NCBI GenBank assembly: GCA_021773975.1
Contig: JAJFJN010000038.1
Coordinates: 1-64,000 of the forward strand
Direction: 5' to 3'
DNA from: Gammaproteobacteria bacterium
GTDB lineage: Bacteria > Pseudomonadota > Gammaproteobacteria > Chromatiales > Chromatiaceae
DNA length: 64,000 bases
Shown piece after piece: positions 42,120 through 53,581 of this stretch. The position numbers and the translations under genes are program-made. Under the pieces are notes generated by a model that did no database searches, had not been told where the DNA came from, and saw only the letters and a program-made list of their open reading frames with translations. Position 1 is the first letter of the stretch. Every line of letters begins with the position of its first letter.

Positions 42120-43157
42120 TTACGCCCTGGAGACAGTTAACTGCTGCAAGACAAAAAGCGATGCCGTAAATAATAAAAGTGCGCCACCCTGATGGGCTGA
42201 GGCCAAAGGAATTGGAACATGAAGCAATAAGGTTGAAATACCCAATGCAACCTGAAGCAAGAGCGCACCTAACAGTAAATGCACCCCTAAACGCAACCTT
42301 GGGGTTAATTCAAACTGCTTAGAGCGCCACCAAAATATTGGAATTATAAAAAACAGTAGCGTTGCCAACACTCGATGGTCAAATTGCACTGTAGCAATAT
42401 TCTCAAAAAAGTTTGCCCAAAGAGGCGTCAGTCGAAAGATACCATCGGGTATAATCTGCCCGTTCATCAACGGAAAAGTATTATAAGCGAATCCAGCCTT
42501 CAAACCTGCAACAAAACCACCCGATAACAACGTAATAAAAACCAAGAGGCTAATAATTTGCGAATACCCGAGCACCTGCTTTATATCACCAGGCGAAGAT
42601 GAAGGTTCAGTCTTAAAAAAGAGTCCCAACGCCACCCAGAAAATATAACCGTAAACCAGCACAGCTAATCCAAAATGGGCGGTTAAACGATATTGACTCA
42701 CATGAGGGTTGCTAACCAAGCCGCTTTTTACCATGTACCATCCCAGTAAACCTTGCAAGCCCCCCAGTACAAACATTGCGACCAACTTGGGCGTAAGTGT
42801 ACGGTCAACGCGGCGTGTCGCAATAAAAAACAACATGGGAATAAGAAAGAGCACTCCAATTAGTCGCCCTAAAATACGGTGCGAATACTCAAACCAGAAA
42901 ATCGACTTAAACTCTTCCAGATTAAAATGGGAATTTTTCTTTATGTACTCTGGTGACTGCTGATAGAGCTGAAAGACCGAATCCCACTCAACTGTGCTCA
43001 TTGGAGGAAGGACACCGGTTATTGGCTCCCATTTTACCATTGAAAGTCCAGAGCCTGTCAGACGCGTAACCCCACCAAGCAAGACCATAGCAAAAATCGC
43101 GAGACAACAGATAAACAACCATATCGCAATAGGTCGCTGGTTCGTGGTGGATTTCAT
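42120..43157 (-). CDS. ctaA: Heme A synthase (COX15/CtaA)
   Basis: This 345-residue inner-membrane enzyme oxidises the heme O methyl group to make heme A. It has eight helices and the conserved VLLGGVTRLTGSGLSMVKWEP, EFKSIFWFEYSHRILGR and QFDHRVLA histidine segments. The ATG at 43157 (MKSTTNQ) is preferred; a TTG extension to 43196 is less likely. It diverges from the CuA-oxidase cluster, which contains ctaB, so the two probably make heme for the same enzyme. FNR-like box 43285-43298 lies between. Confidence 0.92.
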   Translation of the reverse strand: MKSTTNQRPIAIWLFICCLAIFAMVLLGGVTRLTGSGLSMVKWEPITGVLPPMSTVEWDSVFQLYQQSPEYIKKNSHFNLEEFKSIFWFEYSHRILGRLIGVLFLIPMLFFIATRRVDRTLTPKLVAMFVLGGLQGLLGWYMVKSGLVSNPHVSQYRLTAHFGLAVLVYGYIFWVALGLFFKTEPSSSPGDIKQVLGYSQIISLLVFITLLSGGFVAGLKAGFAYNTFPLMNGQIIPDGIFRLTPLWANFFENIATVQFDHRVLATLLFFIIPIFWWRSKQFELTPRLRLGVHLLLGALLLQVALGISTLLLHVPIPLASAHQGGALLLFTASLFVLQQLTVSRA

Positions 43158-43284
43158 AACTTCAGCTCTGCCCTTTGAACCGGGCTTAAACGACAAAGAG
43201 CATGGATGTTACCAAATAGAGCCACAATCGCAAATACAACTTACTAGCAATCCGCATAAAAAGCAGGTTAAAATCTGCGACAAA

Positions 43285-43841: not shown

Positions 43842-44384
43842 ATGACTTCATTTATGCCTCCAGCCCAGAAGAATTGGTGGGCCGTGCCGGTAGGCCGCCA
43901 AGAAATCGTCTGGATTGCAATCGCGCTGGTTTGGTGTCTGATTATGTTTTTCATGATGCCGTTTTGGCACATGTATGGTGATCAGAACATCTCGAACGAA
44001 GGATATCGGGTCACACCGATCAAATATCAAGCAAAAGTCAATGAAATGATCGAGAAGTACAAGGTGCGCGAAGTAGGGGCCATGAAAACCCCCGTAGTCG
44101 CACCACCCGACGGCGGTGATATCTACCTGATGGCACGTCTTTGGTCGTGGTATCCAATGCTGGAGCTCAAGAAGGACGTAACCTATCGCCTTCACCTGAC
44201 CTCCATTGATTGGAATCACGGCTTTTCTTTGCAGCCTGTTAATATCAATCTACAGGTCGTCCCAGGATATGAATTTGTCCTAAACATAACTCCCAATAAA
44301 GCGGGTGAGTATACGATTGTCTGCAACGAATATTGCGGCATCATGCACCACACCATGCTGGGCAAGATCTGGGTGAAGGAGTAA
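43842..44384 (+). CDS. CuA subunit II of heme-copper oxidase/NO reductase (NorY-like)
   Basis: This 180-residue membrane-anchored protein has an N-terminal TM (about 21-41) and a periplasmic cupredoxin domain. CuA ligands are complete: His 126 (WNHGFS), Cys 161, Glu 163, Cys 165, His 169 and Met 172 (CNEYCGIMHHTM). GAGGGGAG precedes the ATG. It accepts electrons from cytochrome c. Its partner at 44391 lacks the oxidase tyrosine, so this pair resembles NorY-NorS (sNOR). A standard ba3-like oxidase subunit is the alternative reading. Confidence 0.85.
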   Translation: MTSFMPPAQKNWWAVPVGRQEIVWIAIALVWCLIMFFMMPFWHMYGDQNISNEGYRVTPIKYQAKVNEMIEKYKVREVGAMKTPVVAPPDGGDIYLMARLWSWYPMLELKKDVTYRLHLTSIDWNHGFSLQPVNINLQVVPGYEFVLNITPNKAGEYTIVCNEYCGIMHHTMLGKIWVKE

Positions 44385-44390
44385 TTGATA

Positions 44391-46127
44391 ATGGCACAAT
44401 TTAGACAATGTCCTGATACAGGGCTATTTTTCCACAAAGAAGCAGAAAACCTGATGAAGGCTAACGCCGTCGCTGGTGTTGTATGCTTACTCATTGCTGG
44501 CGTCCTCGCGTTGCTAGTTGTTCTTACACGTTGGCCTGCCGTCCATTTGCTACCAGCTGATGCCTTTTATATGGTATTGACTGCTCATGGTATCTGCGCG
44601 TTGATCTTCTGGGTCATCTTCTTTGAAATGGCCATTCTCTACTTTGCAGGTTCAACCCTGCTACGCAGCAGACTGGCAACGCCTCGCTGGGCATGGGCTG
44701 GCTTTGTGCTGATGATCGTCGGCGCTGTCATGACACTGGCTGCGGTCTTCGCAGGCAAATCCAGCGTAATGATGACCTCATACGTGCCTATGCGTGCAGA
44801 GCCTAGCTTCTATCTGGGTCTGGTTATATTCGCTGTTGGCGCACTGATCGGTTGCTTTGTCTACCTGGGCACCCTGGTTGTCGCCAAGAATGAGAAGACC
44901 TATGAAGGTTCTGTTCCATTGGTTACCTTTGGTGCCACAGTAGCCTGCGTCATCGCTATCTTCACCATCGCTTCTGGTGCTGAGATCCTGATCCCAACCT
45001 ACCTTTGGTCTATTGGCTATATCAGCCACATCGATCCAGCTATGTACCGCGTCATCTGGTGGGCACTGGGTCACTCCTCACAGCAGATCAACGTAGCTGC
45101 TCACGTAGCCGTTTGGTATCTGATCGCTGGTGTTATTTTTGGCGCTCGCCCAATGTCAGAGAAGGTCAGTCGTGCAGCATACCTGCTCTACATCTTCTTC
45201 TTGCAGCTAGCTTCTGCTCATCACCTGATGACCGATCCAGGTATCAGCTCCGAATGGAAGATCTTCAACACCTCATACGCCATGTATCTGGCTGTATTGG
45301 CTTCCATGATTCACGGTCTGACCGTTCCTGGTGCCATCGAAGTAGCGCAGCGCAAGAAAGGCCTGACCAACGGTTCTTTCGAATGGCTGCGTAAAGCACC
45401 ATGGGGCAACCCAGTCTTCTCCAGCATGTTTATCTCTCTAGTAGGCTTCGGCTTCTTGGGCGGTATCTCTGGTGTAGTTATGGGTACAGAGCAGATCAGT
45501 ATCATCATCCACAACACCATCTATGTACCAGGTCATTTCCACGCTACCGTGGTAATTGGTACAACAATGGCATGGATGGGACTAACCTATCTGCTGATTC
45601 CAGTACTGTTCCGCCGCAAGATGATCCTGCCACAGGCGGCTAAACTACAGCCGTACATCTTCGGTCTTGGCATGTCACTGGTTGCTGTTTTCCATATGGC
45701 TGCTGGCACCTTGGGTGTTGCTCGTCGCCACTGGGACATGGGCTTTGCAGGCAACCCACTGGGCTTCGAATATCCAGCGACCGCTTACCTATTGATGGGT
45801 ATCGCCGGTATTGGTGGTGTTATCGCTGTAGCAGGTGGTGCTCTGTTCATCGCCATCGCTGTTGGCTCTCTGGTATTCGGTGAGAAACTGCAAAAAGAAG
45901 CTGGCCTATTACAGAGCTTTGGCTTTCCTCTTGCTGATTCAGCCTACACCAATGAAAAGCCAGCGCGCTTGCCTATGGCTCCGGCTGAGGCTGTCGAGGC
46001 CGATCATGGTGAAGCCGGCTTTGAGGCTCCAGGAACATTTATCCTGGCTATGGTCTTGCTGGTAAGCTTCGTGATTTACTACTTCATTAACTGGAAGTAT
46101 CTGTCTGAAGTTTGGGGGCTTTCTTAA
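44391..46127 (+). CDS. Heme-copper catalytic subunit I lacking the active-site Tyr (NorS-like)
   Basis: This 578-residue protein has about 12 or more TM helices. The six metal ligands are all present: His 66 (LTAHG), His 228 (ALGHSSQQ), His 277/278 (SAHH) and His 382/384 (PGHFHA). In oxidases the helix with His 228 reads HPEVY, and the Tyr four residues on is cross-linked. Here that position is Gln 232. Loss of this Tyr is typical of NO reductases. The cluster order (subunit II, I, ctaB, SCO) and a DUF420 gene nearby match what I know of NorSY-SenC (sNOR). The ATG at 44391 follows GAAGGAG. Function as NO reductase is inference. Confidence 0.8.
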   Translation: MAQFRQCPDTGLFFHKEAENLMKANAVAGVVCLLIAGVLALLVVLTRWPAVHLLPADAFYMVLTAHGICALIFWVIFFEMAILYFAGSTLLRSRLATPRWAWAGFVLMIVGAVMTLAAVFAGKSSVMMTSYVPMRAEPSFYLGLVIFAVGALIGCFVYLGTLVVAKNEKTYEGSVPLVTFGATVACVIAIFTIASGAEILIPTYLWSIGYISHIDPAMYRVIWWALGHSSQQINVAAHVAVWYLIAGVIFGARPMSEKVSRAAYLLYIFFLQLASAHHLMTDPGISSEWKIFNTSYAMYLAVLASMIHGLTVPGAIEVAQRKKGLTNGSFEWLRKAPWGNPVFSSMFISLVGFGFLGGISGVVMGTEQISIIIHNTIYVPGHFHATVVIGTTMAWMGLTYLLIPVLFRRKMILPQAAKLQPYIFGLGMSLVAVFHMAAGTLGVARRHWDMGFAGNPLGFEYPATAYLLMGIAGIGGVIAVAGGALFIAIAVGSLVFGEKLQKEAGLLQSFGFPLADSAYTNEKPARLPMAPAEAVEADHGEAGFEAPGTFILAMVLLVSFVIYYFINWKYLSEVWGLS

Positions 46128-46281: not shown

Positions 46282-47142
46282 ATGGTCAAGCAACTTATAA
46301 ACCTATTCAAACTACGTATCGGCATTATTATGTCCGTTACCGCTGTTGTTGCGCTGGCCGTTACCCCAGGGCAACCCGTGACTGGCTGGGAAATAGCAAT
46401 TCTTGCTTTTACCGTGCTTATTGCTGCTGGTGGTGCAGGTGCCTTTAATCAATATTACGAAATTGACCTCGACATCAAGATGAAGCGAACTCAGGGTCGC
46501 CCATTCATTAACGGCGACTTCCAACATAATCGCCTCTGGTTATTTTTAATCTCTGGCTTGGTATTAGCCGGAGTAGCTGGCGCTGGCTTTGCACTCAATG
46601 GCCTGGCAGCCCTATTTATCTTTCTTGGCGCGTTTTTTTACGCCATTGTATATACCGTCATACTCAAGCGTCGGACATGGCTCAACATCGTAATCGGTGG
46701 AGCATCCGGGAGCTTTGCTGTGCTGGCTGGTGCAGCCGTAGTCGACCCCAGTGCCATAGGTCCAATCCCGGCTCTACTCGCCGTTGTTCTTTTTCTTTGG
46801 ACACCCTCACATTTCTGGAGTCTGGCTATCGCCCAGCATGACGATTACGCTGCTGCTGGCGTACCAATGCTTCCTGTTGTGGTTGGTGACAAAACTGCGG
46901 CTAAAGCTGTGCTTTTCAACACATTAGCTCTGGTCAGTGTATCCATATTACCCTTCTTTTTTGGACTGAGTTGGATCTACCTTTTTGGCGCCATAACCGG
47001 CGGCGGTTATTTTATTTATCGCAATGTCCAGCTAGTCAACGACACTTCCCGCAAGGTAGCAATGACCAGCTTCTTTGCATCACTCGTTCAGCTGGGGCTA
47101 TTGTTACTATGCTCTGTACTGGATGTCAGCTTGCTCGGTTGA
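46282..47142 (+). CDS. ctaB: Protoheme IX farnesyltransferase (heme O synthase)
   Basis: This 286-residue UbiA-type membrane enzyme farnesylates heme B. The prenyl-diphosphate motif NQYYEIDLDIKMKRTQ.RP is near residues 55-75, with FLWTPSHFWSLAIAQHDDY later. It sits between the NorS-like gene and an SCO gene. Together with ctaA at 42.1 kb, it suggests the neighbouring enzyme carries heme O or heme A. Confidence 0.93.
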   Translation: MVKQLINLFKLRIGIIMSVTAVVALAVTPGQPVTGWEIAILAFTVLIAAGGAGAFNQYYEIDLDIKMKRTQGRPFINGDFQHNRLWLFLISGLVLAGVAGAGFALNGLAALFIFLGAFFYAIVYTVILKRRTWLNIVIGGASGSFAVLAGAAVVDPSAIGPIPALLAVVLFLWTPSHFWSLAIAQHDDYAAAGVPMLPVVVGDKTAAKAVLFNTLALVSVSILPFFFGLSWIYLFGAITGGGYFIYRNVQLVNDTSRKVAMTSFFASLVQLGLLLLCSVLDVSLLG

Positions 47143-47160: not shown

Positions 47161-48000
47161 ATGCAATCAATTAAACTTATCTTCGGTGCACTTTTACTTA
47201 CTCTGACCCTTTTATCCTCTGTACAGGCAGAACTGCCTACCATAACCTCTCTACCCAGCACTGCCGACTCAAACACGCCTGAGTTTGATTATAAAACGGC
47301 TTTAAGAAGCAGCCAGCAGGCTATTGGCAATAAACTCAGCAACCACAGGTTTATGACCAGCAAAGGTAGTGTGCTGGTCATGCAGGAGCTGCTAGGCAAG
47401 CCACTGGTCATCAGCTTGGTCTATACCAGCTGCTTCCACACCTGCCCCATGACCACTCGCAATCTAGCTAAGGTTGTCGAAAAAGCCAGAGATGTATTAG
47501 GCGATCAGAGCTTTAATGTAGCCCTGATTGGCTTTGATGTTGCGAATGACACACCGAGTACCATGCGCTATTTTGGCCGACTGCATGATGCCGATGGTGA
47601 AGGGTGGTACCTGCTCAGCACAGATGAGGCTACCAGAGATAAGCTGGTCAAAGAGCTGGGATTCCTCTATTTCCCGTCAATACGCGGCTTTGATCATCTT
47701 GTACAAACCACTGTGGTTGATGCTGATGGCGCTATTTACCGACAGGTTTATGGGGAGGTATTCAGCACCCCACTTCTCATGGAACCGTTGAAAGAACTCG
47801 TATTTGGACAGCCCTCATCAGCACAAACATTCATCGGCGATCTGGTAAACAGAGTTAAGCTCTTTTGTACCACTTACGACCCCATTCGAGACACTTACTC
47901 TTTCGACTACTCTCTATTTATTAAGATTTTTGTCGGCTTCTCTATCATCGGCTATGGGATTACCTTTTGCATACGCGAATGGAAGCGGGCTATTCGATAG
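47161..48000 (+). CDS. SCO1/SenC-family copper chaperone with C-terminal TM
   Basis: This 279-residue protein has a signal peptide (ends VQA before ELP) and a thioredoxin-fold SCO domain. The copper-binding CFHTCP (Cys pair) is near residue 90, with the conserved His near residue 180 in GFDHLVQT. A C-terminal TM (about 258-274) anchors it, which is unusual since most SCO proteins are N-anchored. It should load CuA of the adjacent subunit II. Position 18 bases after ctaB matches SenC in NorSY clusters. Confidence 0.88.
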   Translation: MQSIKLIFGALLLTLTLLSSVQAELPTITSLPSTADSNTPEFDYKTALRSSQQAIGNKLSNHRFMTSKGSVLVMQELLGKPLVISLVYTSCFHTCPMTTRNLAKVVEKARDVLGDQSFNVALIGFDVANDTPSTMRYFGRLHDADGEGWYLLSTDEATRDKLVKELGFLYFPSIRGFDHLVQTTVVDADGAIYRQVYGEVFSTPLLMEPLKELVFGQPSSAQTFIGDLVNRVKLFCTTYDPIRDTYSFDYSLFIKIFVGFSIIGYGITFCIREWKRAIR

Positions 48001-48258: not shown

Positions 48259-49827
48259 TTGAAAGCAAAATCAAACCCTATTAAGCGCGGCTATCTCTAC
48301 CTGGAGGAGTGGTTCAATGCCTCCTTTGGGGAAGCCTGGAACCCACTCTATCACCTTGGGCCACTTACCTTCTTTTTCTTTTGGATAGCGCTGGTTTCTG
48401 GCCTCTACCTCTATATTTTCTTCAATACCACTGTTGATAATGCCCACGCATCACTTGAAGCCATTGTTCATGGGCATGTGCTTGGGATTGGCAGCCTTAT
48501 GCGCAGCCTGCATCGGTATGCTTCTGATGCGGCCATCTGCACCATCATTCTGCATATTTTCAGGGAATTCTCGCAGGACCGCTATCGAGGTACGCGTTGG
48601 TACTCCTGGTTCACAGGCATTCCCACGCTCTGGATGGTTGTACTTCTTGGTATAACAGGGTACTGGATGGTCTGGGATGAGTTGGCGCTGTATGTCTCAA
48701 TGGGGGCCTCTCATCTGCTCGACGTTATACCCATCTTTTCCGACTCAATGGCTCGAAACTTTTTGCCTGGCAACCTGAGTGATCGTTTCTCCACACTGCT
48801 TGCCTTCTTGCACCTGCTTGGGCAACCCATGATTTTGATATTTATGCTCTGGTTTCATGTCAAACGCCTGACTCATGTTGAAATCAGCGCCCCGAGAGGC
48901 CTAGCCGTCGGCTGCTTTATTGCTTTAACAGCACTCTCTATATACAAGCCTGCTCTCAGTCATGCCCCAGTCAACCTTTCAAAAATCCCCACTGAACTCC
49001 AGCTGGATTGGTTTTATCTCAATATCTTTCCTCTTTTACAGTATTGGTCTCCTGGTGAAGTTTGGCTGCTGGTTGCTGGCGTTACTACCTTTATGCTGTT
49101 CATGCCCTGGCTGCCAAAGAAGGATGAGGGAATTCCAGCCGTTGTTAACTTGGAACACTGTAATGGCTGCGGCCAATGTGCTGTCGATTGCCCCTTTGAT
49201 GCAATCAGCCTGCAACACCGCACCGACGGCGCAAAATGGGAGAGTGAGGTCGTCGTACATCCTGAACTATGCGCCGCCTGCGGCATCTGCACCGGCTCAT
49301 GCCCCTCATCCACACCATTCCGCAAGGTGAAAGATGGTGAAAACCTGAAAACCGGCATAGACATGCCCGGCCTAACCCTTGACAAATTTAAGCAGCAGAC
49401 GGATGAAGTGCTGGCAAAATTAACCGGTGAGAACAAGATCATGGCCTTTGGTTGCACACACGGTTATGACATTGGCACCTTTAGCGCGCCCAATGTTGGC
49501 ACCCTGGATCTCTTTTGCACAGGAATGATGCCCGCATCACTTGCCGAGTACGCACTCAAGAATGGGGCCGATGGAGTCGTTATATCTGGCTGCCGCCATG
49601 GCGATTGCTACTATCGTTTTGGCAACCACTGGATGGATCTCAGGGTCCATGGTAAACGAAAGCCTGCTCTTCGCGCAAAAGTTGATAGGGAACGAATCAA
49701 AATTCTTGGTGGCGCTGATGTTGATGGCAAAAAACTCCACAAACAGTTCTCCGCCTTCCATGATTCTCTTGGGCAAAAAACGGCCACACCCTCTGCGGCC
49801 GCAACCCGGGAGGTAAGTCATGACTAA
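48259..49827 (+). CDS. Cytochrome b / 2x[4Fe-4S] ferredoxin / MvhD-type fusion
   Basis: This protein joins three redox modules. An N-terminal di-heme cytochrome b has His 84 and 98 on one helix and His 185 and 200 on another. A two-cluster ferredoxin has CNGCGQCAVDCP at 301-312 and CAACGICTGSCP at 338-349. A MvhD/FlpD-like domain has FGCTHG, FCTGMMP and SGCRHGDCYYRFGN with Cys 399, 420, 445 and 450. TTG at 48259 is taken as start since GAGGA is nine bases upstream; TTG at 48208 would add 17 residues. The next two genes overlap or abut it, including a heme-copper subunit, so it probably supplies electrons to that enzyme. Confidence 0.85.
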   Translation: MKAKSNPIKRGYLYLEEWFNASFGEAWNPLYHLGPLTFFFFWIALVSGLYLYIFFNTTVDNAHASLEAIVHGHVLGIGSLMRSLHRYASDAAICTIILHIFREFSQDRYRGTRWYSWFTGIPTLWMVVLLGITGYWMVWDELALYVSMGASHLLDVIPIFSDSMARNFLPGNLSDRFSTLLAFLHLLGQPMILIFMLWFHVKRLTHVEISAPRGLAVGCFIALTALSIYKPALSHAPVNLSKIPTELQLDWFYLNIFPLLQYWSPGEVWLLVAGVTTFMLFMPWLPKKDEGIPAVVNLEHCNGCGQCAVDCPFDAISLQHRTDGAKWESEVVVHPELCAACGICTGSCPSSTPFRKVKDGENLKTGIDMPGLTLDKFKQQTDEVLAKLTGENKIMAFGCTHGYDIGTFSAPNVGTLDLFCTGMMPASLAEYALKNGADGVVISGCRHGDCYYRFGNHWMDLRVHGKRKPALRAKVDRERIKILGGADVDGKKLHKQFSAFHDSLGQKTATPSAAATREVSHD

Positions 49828-50329
49828 CAATCCAGCAGTTCGCTATCTTTTACAGGCCGTTAACCTTTTTCTTTTTATGGCGCTGATTGCTGCATTCTCC
49901 TCTGGCCCTACCGTCAGGCAACTTGAAGAAGGTATGGCTGTAGTGACCCTGGCCTTTGGTCATGCAGGCCAACCTGTACGCGCCTGCCATAAACGCACAC
50001 CTGAAGAGCTGGCGGCACTGGCCCCCAATATGCGCGCACCGATGGACTGCCCTCGTGAACGCTCTACGCTTCGAGTCGAGCTTTTTATGGACGGCAAACT
50101 CATTCACGACCTTACCGCACCACCCCCAGGTGCCTTTAAGGACCAAGGCGTGGATATTTACGAAAATGTCACAGTCCCTATTGGTCGCCATACATTTACT
50201 GTACGGATGAAAGATAACGATCAGAGCGAAGACTTTATCTACAGCAATGACTACTCCGTCAATTTGGCAGCTGCTCAGCTGCTGTTTATTGACTTTAGCC
50301 AACAAGAAAACGGTTTCATCTTTAACTAA
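49820..50329 (+). CDS. Small membrane-anchored accessory protein of the second heme-copper cluster
   Basis: This 169-residue protein has one N-terminal TM (about residues 10-28), then an extracytoplasmic domain with two Cys (VRACHKR, MDCPRE) and a predicted beta-sandwich (LRVELFMDGKLIHDL, VPIGRHTFTVRMKD). GGGAGG precedes the ATG, which overlaps the fusion gene by eight bases. The stop directly abuts the next ATG. I do not recognise a family. Position suggests a structural or metal-handling subunit of the adjacent reductase. Confidence 0.72.
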   Translation: MTNNPAVRYLLQAVNLFLFMALIAAFSSGPTVRQLEEGMAVVTLAFGHAGQPVRACHKRTPEELAALAPNMRAPMDCPRERSTLRVELFMDGKLIHDLTAPPPGAFKDQGVDIYENVTVPIGRHTFTVRMKDNDQSEDFIYSNDYSVNLAAAQLLFIDFSQQENGFIFN

Positions 50330-51697
50330 ATGACTGATCACTTCACTCTCGATATCTCTGCTGATCGCACGATCCGCAGACAAGCCACCGCCTGGCTTAT
50401 CCTCGCCCTTGGCTCTTTGGTCATTGGCGGCCTATTTGTCATCCTTATTGTTCTATCTCGAACACCCGGCATTCAAGACATCATCCCCTGGGTGGATTTT
50501 TTTAAAACGGCCCTCGTAATACATGTCGACATGACGGTACTGGTCTGGTTTCTCGCCTTTGCCGGTATTTTCTGGAGCCTGAACAGCAACGACAACTGCA
50601 CCAGCTGCGGATGGCCGCCTATCTTTCTAGCCGCACTGGGAATGCTGGGCATAACAGCATCACCATTCCTCGGGGCTGGAAACCCACTGATGAACAACTA
50701 TGTTCCCGTACTACAGGATCCCATATTTTTTGTAGCACTCGGCATCTTTGGGCTTGGCTTCACGCTACAGATTTTGAATGGCCTAATCCATTCCAAGCCT
50801 GTTGGCAAATTCATGGATGGCAGCGCTACGCTACGTTTTGGGCTGTACACAGCTCTGATTGCAGCCCTTCTCTCCATGATGTCGATTGGCTGGTCTTACA
50901 GCATGATGCCGGAAGAGATAGAGGGGCAGCACTACTATGAGCTGCTATTCTGGGGTGGCGGACACGTCATTCAGTTCACGCATACCCAACTCATGTTTGT
51001 GGTCTGGTTATGGCTGGCAACCGTTTCCGGTGTCACCATTAAGGCCAATCCACGCCTAATCCTCATACTATTTGCCTTAGGCGCAATGCCAGTCCTATTT
51101 GCGCCGGCCATCTATCTCACCTACCCAGTAGAAGACCCAGGCTATGCCATTACCTTTACCTGGCTGATGAAATACGGTGGCGGCCTCGCAGCATTGCCGC
51201 TGGGCCTCATCCTCATCACCTCTCTCATCAGCGCTGGCAAGGCATCTGATGTCTACCGAGCTGAACGCTCTGCATTGATCTTCTCAATACTGCTGTTCGG
51301 TACCGGTGGAATAATTGGCTTTATGATTACAGGTAGTAACGTACGCGTTCCTGCACACTATCATGGCTCGATCATTGGCGTCACCATGGCATTTATGGGC
51401 ATCACCTATTACCTATTGCCACGGCTCGGCTTTCGCAAGCCTATGGGGAAATGGGCGCTACGACAGCCTGCTATCTATGGTACAGGTCAAATGATCTGGG
51501 TATTGGCTATGGCCTACACAGGAGGGCATGGTGTTCAGCGCAAAACAGCAGGAGCAGCTCAGGCGTTAAAAACTATGGACGAATATATCGCCATGGGGTT
51601 GATGGGGATTGGCGGGATCATCGCCATCTCTGGCGGGATCATCTATCTAGTTGTGGTTTATAAAGCCATGCGCCCTGAAAAGAGACTCACCACTTAA
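50330..51697 (+). CDS. Divergent heme-copper subunit I homologue (candidate gNOR-type NO reductase)
   Basis: This 455-residue protein has about 12 TM helices. Heme-ligand histidines appear as His 65 (VIHVDM) and the His 343/345 pair (PAHYHG). Helix VI has GGGHVIQFTHTQ (His 212, 218), but there is no Tyr at the oxidase position. The His-His pair that binds CuB in helix VII is absent, replaced by a segment with YPVEDPGY. Such ligand changes are reported for the gNOR type, so NO reduction is the best guess. The preceding cytochrome b/ferredoxin/MvhD fusion would be the electron donor. Database tools would likely label it cbb3-type oxidase subunit I. Confidence 0.75.
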   Translation: MTDHFTLDISADRTIRRQATAWLILALGSLVIGGLFVILIVLSRTPGIQDIIPWVDFFKTALVIHVDMTVLVWFLAFAGIFWSLNSNDNCTSCGWPPIFLAALGMLGITASPFLGAGNPLMNNYVPVLQDPIFFVALGIFGLGFTLQILNGLIHSKPVGKFMDGSATLRFGLYTALIAALLSMMSIGWSYSMMPEEIEGQHYYELLFWGGGHVIQFTHTQLMFVVWLWLATVSGVTIKANPRLILILFALGAMPVLFAPAIYLTYPVEDPGYAITFTWLMKYGGGLAALPLGLILITSLISAGKASDVYRAERSALIFSILLFGTGGIIGFMITGSNVRVPAHYHGSIIGVTMAFMGITYYLLPRLGFRKPMGKWALRQPAIYGTGQMIWVLAMAYTGGHGVQRKTAGAAQALKTMDEYIAMGLMGIGGIIAISGGIIYLVVVYKAMRPEKRLTT

Positions 51698-51724: not shown

Positions 51725-51767
51725 AGCCATGCAGCAACCTACTCAAGTCGCTGCATGGCTTCTTCTT
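51725..51767. terminator. Terminator between convergent clusters
   Basis: An 11-bp perfect stem (51725-51735 with 51750-51760) and 14-base loop are followed by a T-rich run on the plus strand. It ends the second heme-copper cluster. Confidence 0.75.
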
Positions 51768-51772
51768 TCTTA

Positions 51773-52063
51773 CTAGTCAATCGGAGGCAATGCTGGTGAC
51801 CGCACAAGCTCTGACTCTGGCACTGGCTCAGCTATTGATTCAGATTGCTCAGTTTCAGCAGGCCCATTAGGTAGCACATCACTAAAAATACGCTGTATGC
51901 CTTCAAATGTTACTATAGAAAGAATCATGATTATCATAAGAAAAATAATACTTCTACTACTTCCAAAACCCTTTCCCCGCCATTTTTCAAGTCCAACCAA
52001 TATCTTATCTGAGACCACATAAAGCACAATCGCAGTCACTGTATACATAAGCATTTGCTGCAT
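51773..52063 (-). CDS. Two-TM small membrane protein, unknown function
   Basis: This 96-residue protein has hydrophobic segments at about 4-22 and 39-58, with a basic loop between (EKWRGKGFGSSR), and a Pro/Glu/Ser-rich tail. I do not recognise the family. It is last in a leftward series with DUF420, SCO and small membrane genes, 90 bases after DUF420. AAAAGAAATT is a weak ribosome site. Probably an accessory gene of the neighbouring heme-copper enzymes. Confidence 0.58.
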   Translation of the reverse strand: MQQMLMYTVTAIVLYVVSDKILVGLEKWRGKGFGSSRSIIFLMIIMILSIVTFEGIQRIFSDVLPNGPAETEQSESIAEPVPESELVRSPALPPID

Positions 52064-52153: not shown

Positions 52154-52594
52154 TTACGACAAACCAAGCGATGGGGGATAGAGATGGAAAGCCATAAGAT
52201 AAACGATAACACCGCTCACACTGACATAGATCCAGATCGGAAAAGTCCAGCGTGCAATCCGCTTGTGTCGCTCAAAGCTCCCTCTTAATGCATGAAACGC
52301 CGTAATAATAACCATCGGCACAATCAATGCAGCAAGAATGACGTGAGAAGCAAGAATTGTAAAATAGATGGGGCGCACTCCACCCTCTCCTGCAAATTTC
52401 ACATTACCTACTTGGCTGTGGTACGTCAGATATGAAACCATAAATAGCGCAGATACCGTCAATGCAGCAATCATGAGTTTCCGATGCACAGCACGATTAT
52501 CCTGACGAATATTATAGTAAGCCACACTAATCAGACATACCGTCAACACATTCAAGCCCGCCTGTAGGTGTGGCAATACCGCTATAATATCCAC
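52154..52594 (-). CDS. DUF420 membrane protein (CtaM-like)
   Basis: This 146-residue inner-membrane protein has four helices and matches DUF420: HLQAGLNVLTVCLISVAYYN, VHRKLMI, SYLTYHSQVG, and RIARWTFPIWIYVSVSGVIVY. DUF420 (CtaM/YozB) proteins assist assembly of heme-copper enzymes, and one accompanies NorSY-SenC clusters. The start is GTG overlapping the upstream stop (TAGTG). Located leftward of an SCO gene. Confidence 0.85.
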   Translation of the reverse strand: MDIIAVLPHLQAGLNVLTVCLISVAYYNIRQDNRAVHRKLMIAALTVSALFMVSYLTYHSQVGNVKFAGEGGVRPIYFTILASHVILAALIVPMVIITAFHALRGSFERHKRIARWTFPIWIYVSVSGVIVYLMAFHLYPPSLGLS

Positions 52595-52875
52595 TACTTT
52601 CTCTCACCCTTGGCATTAGCGTTAGCATCTACCTTAGGAACGGCCTTACGCTTATCCCACTCTTTCTTTAAAATAAACAAAATAACGATTGCCAAGGAAA
52701 CATTAAATATAACAGCTACGATTATATAGCCCGGCACTTCTCGTGGCTCATCAACACTTATAACAGGTGCCACACTCTCAACCCCACACACAAAAGAACT
52801 TACCATTGAGAGAGTAATAATAAAAAAGAGTTTTTGACAAAGACGGTATAAAGGCATATTGAAAATACGCGGCAT
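52594..52875 (-). CDS. Small protein with signal/TM helix, unknown
   Basis: This 93-residue protein has a hydrophobic N-terminal segment (about 13-30) and a second TM (about 50-70, PGYIIVAVIFNVSLAIVILF), then a basic tail. The ATG at 52875 is favoured because AAGG sits eight bases upstream; ATG at 52896 is alternative. Its stop overlaps the GTG of the DUF420 gene, so the two are coupled. Function is unknown; it is probably an oxidase assembly partner. Confidence 0.6.
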   Translation of the reverse strand: MPRIFNMPLYRLCQKLFFIITLSMVSSFVCGVESVAPVISVDEPREVPGYIIVAVIFNVSLAIVILFILKKEWDKRKAVPKVDANANAKGERK

Positions 52876-52936
52876 CAGGTTTACCTTATTTTGCATTTAG
52901 CAGGAAGCAGCCTTAATAATTAATCCTAAATAGAAC

Positions 52937-53581
52937 TCAGTCACGCAACTTAAGGATATCCAAATACTGCTCGGTGATTGCTTTTGGTATATGAGGCGGG
53001 GAGAAGGCACCATGAACCCGCTGTTTTGGCCCAATTAGGTAGATAGAGCCTGTATGATTGACTTGGTAAGCACCGTGCTCATCCGGTTCATCTTTAATAT
53101 AACCAGCACTCAGCTGTAGCGTTAGTGCGTCAATCGCCTCAATTGACCCTGTAAATCCAGCAAAGCTTTTATCAAAATATTCGACATACTCAGAGATATG
53201 CTCTGGTGTATCTCGATCTGGATCAACTGAGATAAACACAACCTGCGTTTTCGCTTGAATCTCTGGCTTTTCTGCGAGGCTATCATAGACAGCTTTCATG
53301 ACAGAAAGCGTCATTGGACAGACATCTGGACAGCTGGTATATCCAAAAAACAGCAACGTCCATTTATCTTTTAATCGGGCTAAATCTAAAGCCCCCCCGC
53401 CCGCTTCACTTAATTCAAAGGCAGTCAGCTGTCGAGGTTCAGGCCAGAGTACCGCTTGCAACTCCGCAGGAAATTTCTTTAATGTAGATGGCTTTAATAG
53501 AAAAACTGATGCAAAGAAAAGAGCAACAATGCCAATTCCAATCAGCGCCTTCATTGGACTACGTTTTACTTCAGAACTCAT
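52937..53581 (-). CDS. SCO family copper chaperone (second copy)
   Basis: This 214-residue protein has an N-terminal TM anchor (about 12-28) and a periplasmic SCO domain: FFGYTSCPDVCPMTL with the copper-binding Cys pair near residues 78-82, VFISVDPDRDTP, and the His in QVNHTGSIYLIGP. It delivers copper to a CuA site. It lies in a leftward set with DUF420, opposite to the SCO at 47.2 kb, so two copper chaperones flank the two heme-copper enzymes. Confidence 0.9.
   Translation of the reverse strand: MSSEVKRSPMKALIGIGIVALFFASVFLLKPSTLKKFPAELQAVLWPEPRQLTAFELSEAGGGALDLARLKDKWTLLFFGYTSCPDVCPMTLSVMKAVYDSLAEKPEIQAKTQVVFISVDPDRDTPEHISEYVEYFDKSFAGFTGSIEAIDALTLQLSAGYIKDEPDEHGAYQVNHTGSIYLIGPKQRVHGAFSPPHIPKAITEQYLDILKLRD

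Follow-up and report, generated by a model that had tools for sequence, protein, structure and literature searches.

The membrane protein CYB, a cytochrome b6/ferredoxin/FlpD fusion, the small anchored protein SML and the heme-copper subunit HCO2, which has lost its CuB ligands, are encoded at the 3' end of a run of seven same-strand genes, 5'-CupII-NORI-CtaB-SCO-CYB-SML-HCO2-3' (Table 1). We propose that this trio is the 3' half of an operon for an eNOR-type NO reductase, with HCO2 as an accessory protein and CYB as the electron input of the eNOR system, an explanation that, taken whole, we regard as having about an even chance of being right. Gene order, motifs, fold and co-occurrence were observed directly; the activities of all proteins we infer.

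Table 1. Features of the locus. Positions refer to the window, i.e. the whole 64,000-nucleotide stretch of DNA that was analysed.
Feature	Position	Strand	Basis or remark
Near-identical palindrome TTGACGCAGGTCAA, twin of TTGACACAGGTCAA	33098-33111		Upstream of nosZ
ctaA, heme A synthase	42120..43196	-	PF02628, 366 bits; divergent from operon
Candidate FNR/NNR-type box TTGACACAGGTCAA	43285..43298		Consensus match; ctaA-CupII gap
CupII, CuA-type subunit II of eNOR	43842..44384	+	PF00116; C-x3-C-x3-H-x2-M motif; directly 5' of NORI
NORI, eNOR-type catalytic subunit I	44385..46127	+	PF00115, 210 bits
CtaB, heme O synthase	46282..47142	+	TIGR01473, 245 bits, above cut-off
SCO/SenC copper chaperone	47161..48000	+	PF02630
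CYB	48259..49827	+	Pfam domains; start set from 522-aa homologues
SML	49820..50329	+	One N-terminal TM helix, periplasmic beta-sandwich
HCO2, 12-TM heme-copper subunit I	50330..51697	+	PF00115 and AlphaFold2 fold
Strong hairpin, 16 pairs	51725..51760		After HCO2, at convergent gene junction
DUF420 protein	52154..52594	-	PF04238, 146 bits
Second SCO/SenC copper chaperone	52937..53581	-	PF02630, 132 bits

The run is flanked by a nos cluster (TAT NosZ, NosR and NosD) on one side and by narGH and a narK-like gene on the other, and its gene order is kept across many Gamma- and Betaproteobacteria, often beside nirS and heme d1 genes; culturable relatives that have the operon include Herbaspirillum sp. 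ST 5-3 and Quisquiliibacterium. A link of the locus to NO reduction, as the sequence-only reading of this DNA had suggested, is supported. That reading had also taken the trio for a self-contained set, which it is not: it closes the longer run, and NORI starts 3.9 kb upstream of CYB. Likewise, of the gene overlaps it had claimed, one stands: SML starts at 49820, 8 bp inside CYB, whereas HCO2 (start 50330) only abuts SML (end 50329). The gap between SCO and CYB measures 258 bp and leaves room for a possible second promoter, and the operon likely ends at the hairpin behind HCO2. Exact matches to TTGACNNNNGTCAA occur at only two places in the window, one preceding nosZ and one between ctaA and CupII, and these candidate boxes are consistent with a shared FNR/NNR-type control. 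The ctaA gene beside the operon is the only one in the source genome. Convergent with HCO2 lies the DUF420 gene, whose family (PF04238) we take to be the CtaM/YozB type of oxidase assembly proteins. Beside it and the second SCO gene, also on the minus strand, are two genes for small membrane proteins of no known family (51773-52063 and 52594-52896). A secreted protein of 165 aa, for which neither Pfam nor NCBIfam gave a match, is a repeated neighbour of SCO and HCO2 (L044:8660-9154 and 15 further loci).

NORI carries the motifs GHSSQQIN in helix VI, AHH in helix VII and GHFH in helix X. Its active-site Tyr is thus exchanged for Gln, a marker of eNOR (PMC8756737), and it has an intact His-His pair, all three CuB histidines, B-type relatives (the nearest solved chains are of the ba3 type) and a cupredoxin subunit II encoded directly upstream. 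An assignment to sNOR was rejected, the residue at the +4 position being Gln and not Asn. Only three genes of the source genome carry PF00115, namely a cbb3-like gene, NORI and HCO2, with no cNOR or qNOR among them, so NORI is the sole recognisable NO reductase of this genome and, judged by its residues and clade, very likely the NO reductase of the operon. eNOR has been reported before in Zetaproteobacteria (PMC8114936). A copy on a Thermus plasmid adjoins an Rrf2 regulator and a DUF542 gene, neighbours to be expected of NO genes. Separately, an eNOR-like subunit of a Thermus thermophilus plasmid (L119:9001-10647) has GHFK in helix X where the others have HxH, with Lys taking the place of one heme His.

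HCO2 scores 39.4 bits against PF00115, barely above the cut-off, and the family profile matches all 52 of 52 aligned members. Its AlphaFold2 model (pLDDT 87.6, pTM 0.91) is a complete bundle of 12 transmembrane helices and aligns with subunits I of the aa3, ba3, cbb3 and cNOR enzymes at Z scores of about 28-31 over more than 400 residues; a search of its sequence profile against PDB chains gave no match even at E 10, which is why the folds were compared. With this COX1 fold, the PF00115 match and heme histidines in helices II and X, HCO2 belongs to the heme-copper subunits I. We aligned it with aa3, ba3, cbb3, cNOR and eNOR sequences from related genomes and plasmids. In helix VI, HCO2 reads GHVIQF where eNOR reads GHSSQQ and oxidases GHPxVY: the His is kept (H212) and the active-site Tyr is replaced by F216. 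In helix VII, I261-Y262 stand where all other aligned families carry His-His. The low-spin and high-spin heme ligands are kept (H65 and H343/H345), and H65, H212, Q215, H343 and H345 do not vary in 75 HCO2 relatives. The sequence-only reading had noted the missing helix VI Tyr and helix VII His-His pair, and both losses are confirmed, leaving no normal CuB site. M280 was considered as a replacement ligand and rejected, as it lies in helix VIII and not VII.

Position 216 is never Tyr among the 75 family members; one relative (L017) has Tyr there. Where the second His of helix VII was lost, most members carry Tyr; some carry His, and these may have a two-His metal site. HCO2 relatives are encoded in open frames at at least 580 genomic places, far more than chance would give, and the family has more than 40 invariant columns over several phyla; by the alignment, the ligand losses are a conserved family trait and not damage in one genome. 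In plasmid records no HCO2 relative was found. HCO2 thus has neither the three CuB histidines and helix VI (or VII) Tyr of oxygen reductases, nor the helix VI Glu and three FeB histidines of cNOR and qNOR, nor the +4 Gln and His-His of eNOR, and by these residues it is very probably no conventional NO reductase or oxidase. Since CuB is lost, the normal binuclear mechanism for reducing NO or O2 should not be open to HCO2; some ligand chemistry could remain, given that H212 and Q215 are strictly conserved beside the heme.

In phylogenetic trees, HCO2 and its extended relatives formed one clade, apart from C-type oxidases and cNOR, that joined eNOR in the B-type group (SH-aLRT 97-98); this grouping persisted when the active-site columns were removed (SH-aLRT 96.6). 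The trees were quick ones with long branches, built with aa3, ba3, cbb3, cNOR and eNOR references, and identity between the HCO2 relatives and solved heme-copper oxidases is just 12-17% or so, which makes the deep placement uncertain. Forcing HCO2 together with cNOR, the NorB type that was sampled, made the tree 20.4 lnL units worse (p-AU 0.065), an arrangement that is disfavoured and not formally rejected. A place within the oxidases would have told against the sequence-only reading, and this came true by half, as HCO2 lies beside eNOR within a clade of B-type oxidases and NO reductases. The earlier label "gNOR-like" we drop on the single marker used here: where HCO2 has Phe, the active-site residue of gNOR is Asp (PMC8756737, Table A4). 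Extended-clade members occur in other genomes of the phylum (L133:4242-10711, L131, L122 and L123), two of them, L133 and L131, with a C-terminal TPR domain; the L133 gene has CcsA-type and ResB-like genes of cytochrome c assembly beside it, along with one for a large multiheme cytochrome.

CYB combines Cytochrome_B, two Fer4 and an FlpD domain in one open frame (Pfam); its TTG start fits 522-aa homologues, and upstream of it the open frame extends to 48208. Its N-terminus is a cytochrome b6-type di-heme module, with two bis-His pairs at b6-type spacing on two helices (H102/H116 and H202/H217) and cytochrome b6 as best PDB matches. The C-terminus belongs to FlpD/MvhD (PF02662, 51.6 bits against a cut-off of 22.3). 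Both His pairs, the Cys of two clusters (C318/C321/C324/C328 and C355/C358/C361/C365) and the FlpD Cys (C416/C437/C462/C467) are invariant in 26 homologues, and a profile search returned cytochrome b6, polyferredoxins and MvhD. Domains and ligands alike uphold the earlier description of CYB as a di-heme b module, two [4Fe-4S] clusters and an MvhD/FlpD domain in one polypeptide. SML has two invariant cysteines (Cys56 and Cys77) and no Pfam family match; structure searches (Foldseek/VIA) gave generic beta-sandwich matches only, including the best one, the HGSNAT lumenal domain (Z 9.5), with which we do not accept kinship. The sole second CYB copy of the source genome (contig C96:17584-19077; L188:6468-8117), 53% identical, sits among housekeeping genes after a gene for a 509-aa protein, and no NO reductase, hydrogenase or Hdr gene was found near it. 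Several genomes have CYB in tandem or twice (L081, L084, L109, G136, G201, G227 and G278).

We surveyed the three genes in 398 genomes of the phylum, as raw counts that ignore shared ancestry. eNOR was present in 30 genomes, CYB in 34 and HCO2 in 58. Among the eNOR genomes, 29 of 30 carry HCO2 and 29 of 30 carry CYB; of the 29 HCO2 genomes without eNOR, by contrast, only five have CYB, all five being incomplete or contaminated, which leaves 24 genomes with HCO2 and neither of the other two. Moreover, a Defluviimonas plasmid operon reads CupII-NORI-cyoE-SCO-CYB-small protein, with no HCO2. CYB and SML, which thus go with eNOR, are parts of the eNOR operon, and HCO2 forms a module of its own, as a rule present together with eNOR and also occurring elsewhere. 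That CYB feeds HCO2, as had been suggested, is not favoured, because CYB follows eNOR and not HCO2 across genomes; CYB probably serves eNOR. The same counts bear on the strongest competing explanation, in which HCO2 is a non-catalytic subunit of a membrane redox complex with CYB and SML. In it, the b hemes of CYB and the hemes of HCO2 would relay electrons to eNOR, with quinol or a cytoplasmic Fe-S donor as their source. The contiguous, overlapping or abutting genes and the invariant heme-ligand sets of both proteins would suit such a complex, but with so many genomes holding HCO2 alone, CYB and a small protein without HCO2 in Defluviimonas, and HCO2 divergently transcribed or distant from CYB in several lineages, we consider it unlikely.

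The neighbours of HCO2 point instead to heme A and copper supply. In 24 of 58 HCO2 genomes, HCO2 and ctaA are directly adjacent, at a distance of 53-364 bp, and ctaA is present in 54 of 58 genomes with HCO2 compared to 222 of 340 without. In Nitrospirae, Nitrospinota and one further genome (G018), HCO2 is part of an aa3 oxidase operon, where it either separates ctaB from ctaA or adjoins them, and a DUF420 gene precedes that of a deep relative. One genome that is 100% complete (G041) has a cbb3-type enzyme and HCO2 as its only PF00115 proteins and nonetheless possesses ctaA, a hint at a possible use of heme A by HCO2 itself, unless an assembly gap is the cause. HCO2 is missing from the Defluviimonas operon and from most heme A makers and is therefore no general requirement. 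We tentatively read HCO2, at somewhat less than even chances, as an accessory heme protein in heme A or copper supply or assembly. A narrower version, in which HCO2 is a CuB-less pseudo-oxidase that works with CtaA, for instance as a heme A carrier or scaffold, or else a redox partner that lets heme A form at low or no O2, is less probable, even with both forms taken together. If it were true, denitrifiers and microaerophiles could assemble heme A- or heme O-type NO and O2 reductases.

Other functions for HCO2 are less probable still. As a membrane heme sensor or scavenger of NO or O2, it would bind gas at a five-coordinate heme and signal or buffer. The retained high-spin heme ligand beside a lost CuB, the TPR protein-interaction domains of the deep clade and the frequent hemerythrin and Crp/Fnr neighbours agree with this, yet the 455-aa protein has no output domain and heme/copper assembly genes dominate its neighbourhoods, and we think a sensor rather improbable. 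That HCO2 is itself an NO reductase with an altered metal site, fed by CYB, is more doubtful again: its gene setting, its sister relationship to eNOR and the kept His212 would fit, but two of three CuB/FeB histidines are gone, the +4 residue is not Glu, Asp, Asn or Gln, the operon already holds a complete NO reductase, and HCO2 also occurs in aa3 operons and, in 29 genomes, without eNOR. A decaying pseudo-enzyme without function, for which the lost catalytic residues might speak, is contradicted by the invariant columns, open frames and conserved ctaA linkage and is scarcely credible.

Under the accessory-protein explanation, cytochrome c or a cupredoxin would pass electrons to CuA in CupII and on to NORI, where, from its residues and clade, 2 NO would be reduced to N2O. 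CtaB would make heme O for NORI (heme A with ctaA) and SCO would load copper. CYB, which has three Fe-S sites, would act as the electron-input module, linking a cytoplasmic Fe-S/FlpD partner with the quinone pool or eNOR through its two b hemes, and SML would be its periplasmic companion. HCO2, presumably a paralogue of the eNOR catalytic subunit that kept both heme sites and lost CuB, would most likely serve eNOR and aa3-type enzymes by helping to make or load their heme A (or O) and copper.

A literature search found no relevant description of a CuB-less heme-copper oxidase. eNOR itself is already known; the HCO2 family, its tie to ctaA, its place in the eNOR operon and the additions of CYB and SML are undescribed in the literature covered; part of what is new about HCO2 and CYB may already be in the central eNOR paper (10.1073/pnas.2316422121), which lies outside it. 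In surveys, every gene with PF00115 counts as an enzyme of respiration, be it an oxidase or an NO reductase, and several hundred or more ctaA-tied, CuB-less members would thereby be miscounted. If HCO2 handles heme A, it would shed light on how bacteria at the oxic-anoxic border assemble their heme A enzymes and would open eNOR biogenesis to simple genetics. The cytochrome b6/FlpD fusion would add an unstudied electron route to denitrification.

Among known systems, the N-terminal half of CYB resembles cytochrome b6 (E 4e-30) and its C-terminal half the MvhD and HdrA2 proteins of methanogens (85 bits to the Fer4-FlpD part of HdrA2, besides MvhD); unlike these, CYB joins both halves in one membrane polypeptide, with neither HdrA flavin nor hydrogenase subunits. 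gNOR (norGH) is a proposed NO reductase akin to B-type oxidases; its active-site Asp contrasts with the Phe of HCO2, which also lacks the His pair of helix VII. The sNOR cluster norSY-senC-orf1 of ammonia oxidisers likewise has a CuA subunit, a B-type heme-copper oxidase and SCO/SenC in a row, but its active-site residue is described as Asn, against the Gln of NORI. eNOR is reportedly the B-type NO reductase with an active-site Gln of Hemp and Gennis and of Murali et al. NORI and CupII match it in the helix VI Gln for Tyr, the intact His-His and the gene for a cupredoxin subunit II just before that of subunit I. HCO2, as the sister lineage of eNOR, shares the Gln at His+3 and has lost the His-His and the +4 Gln.
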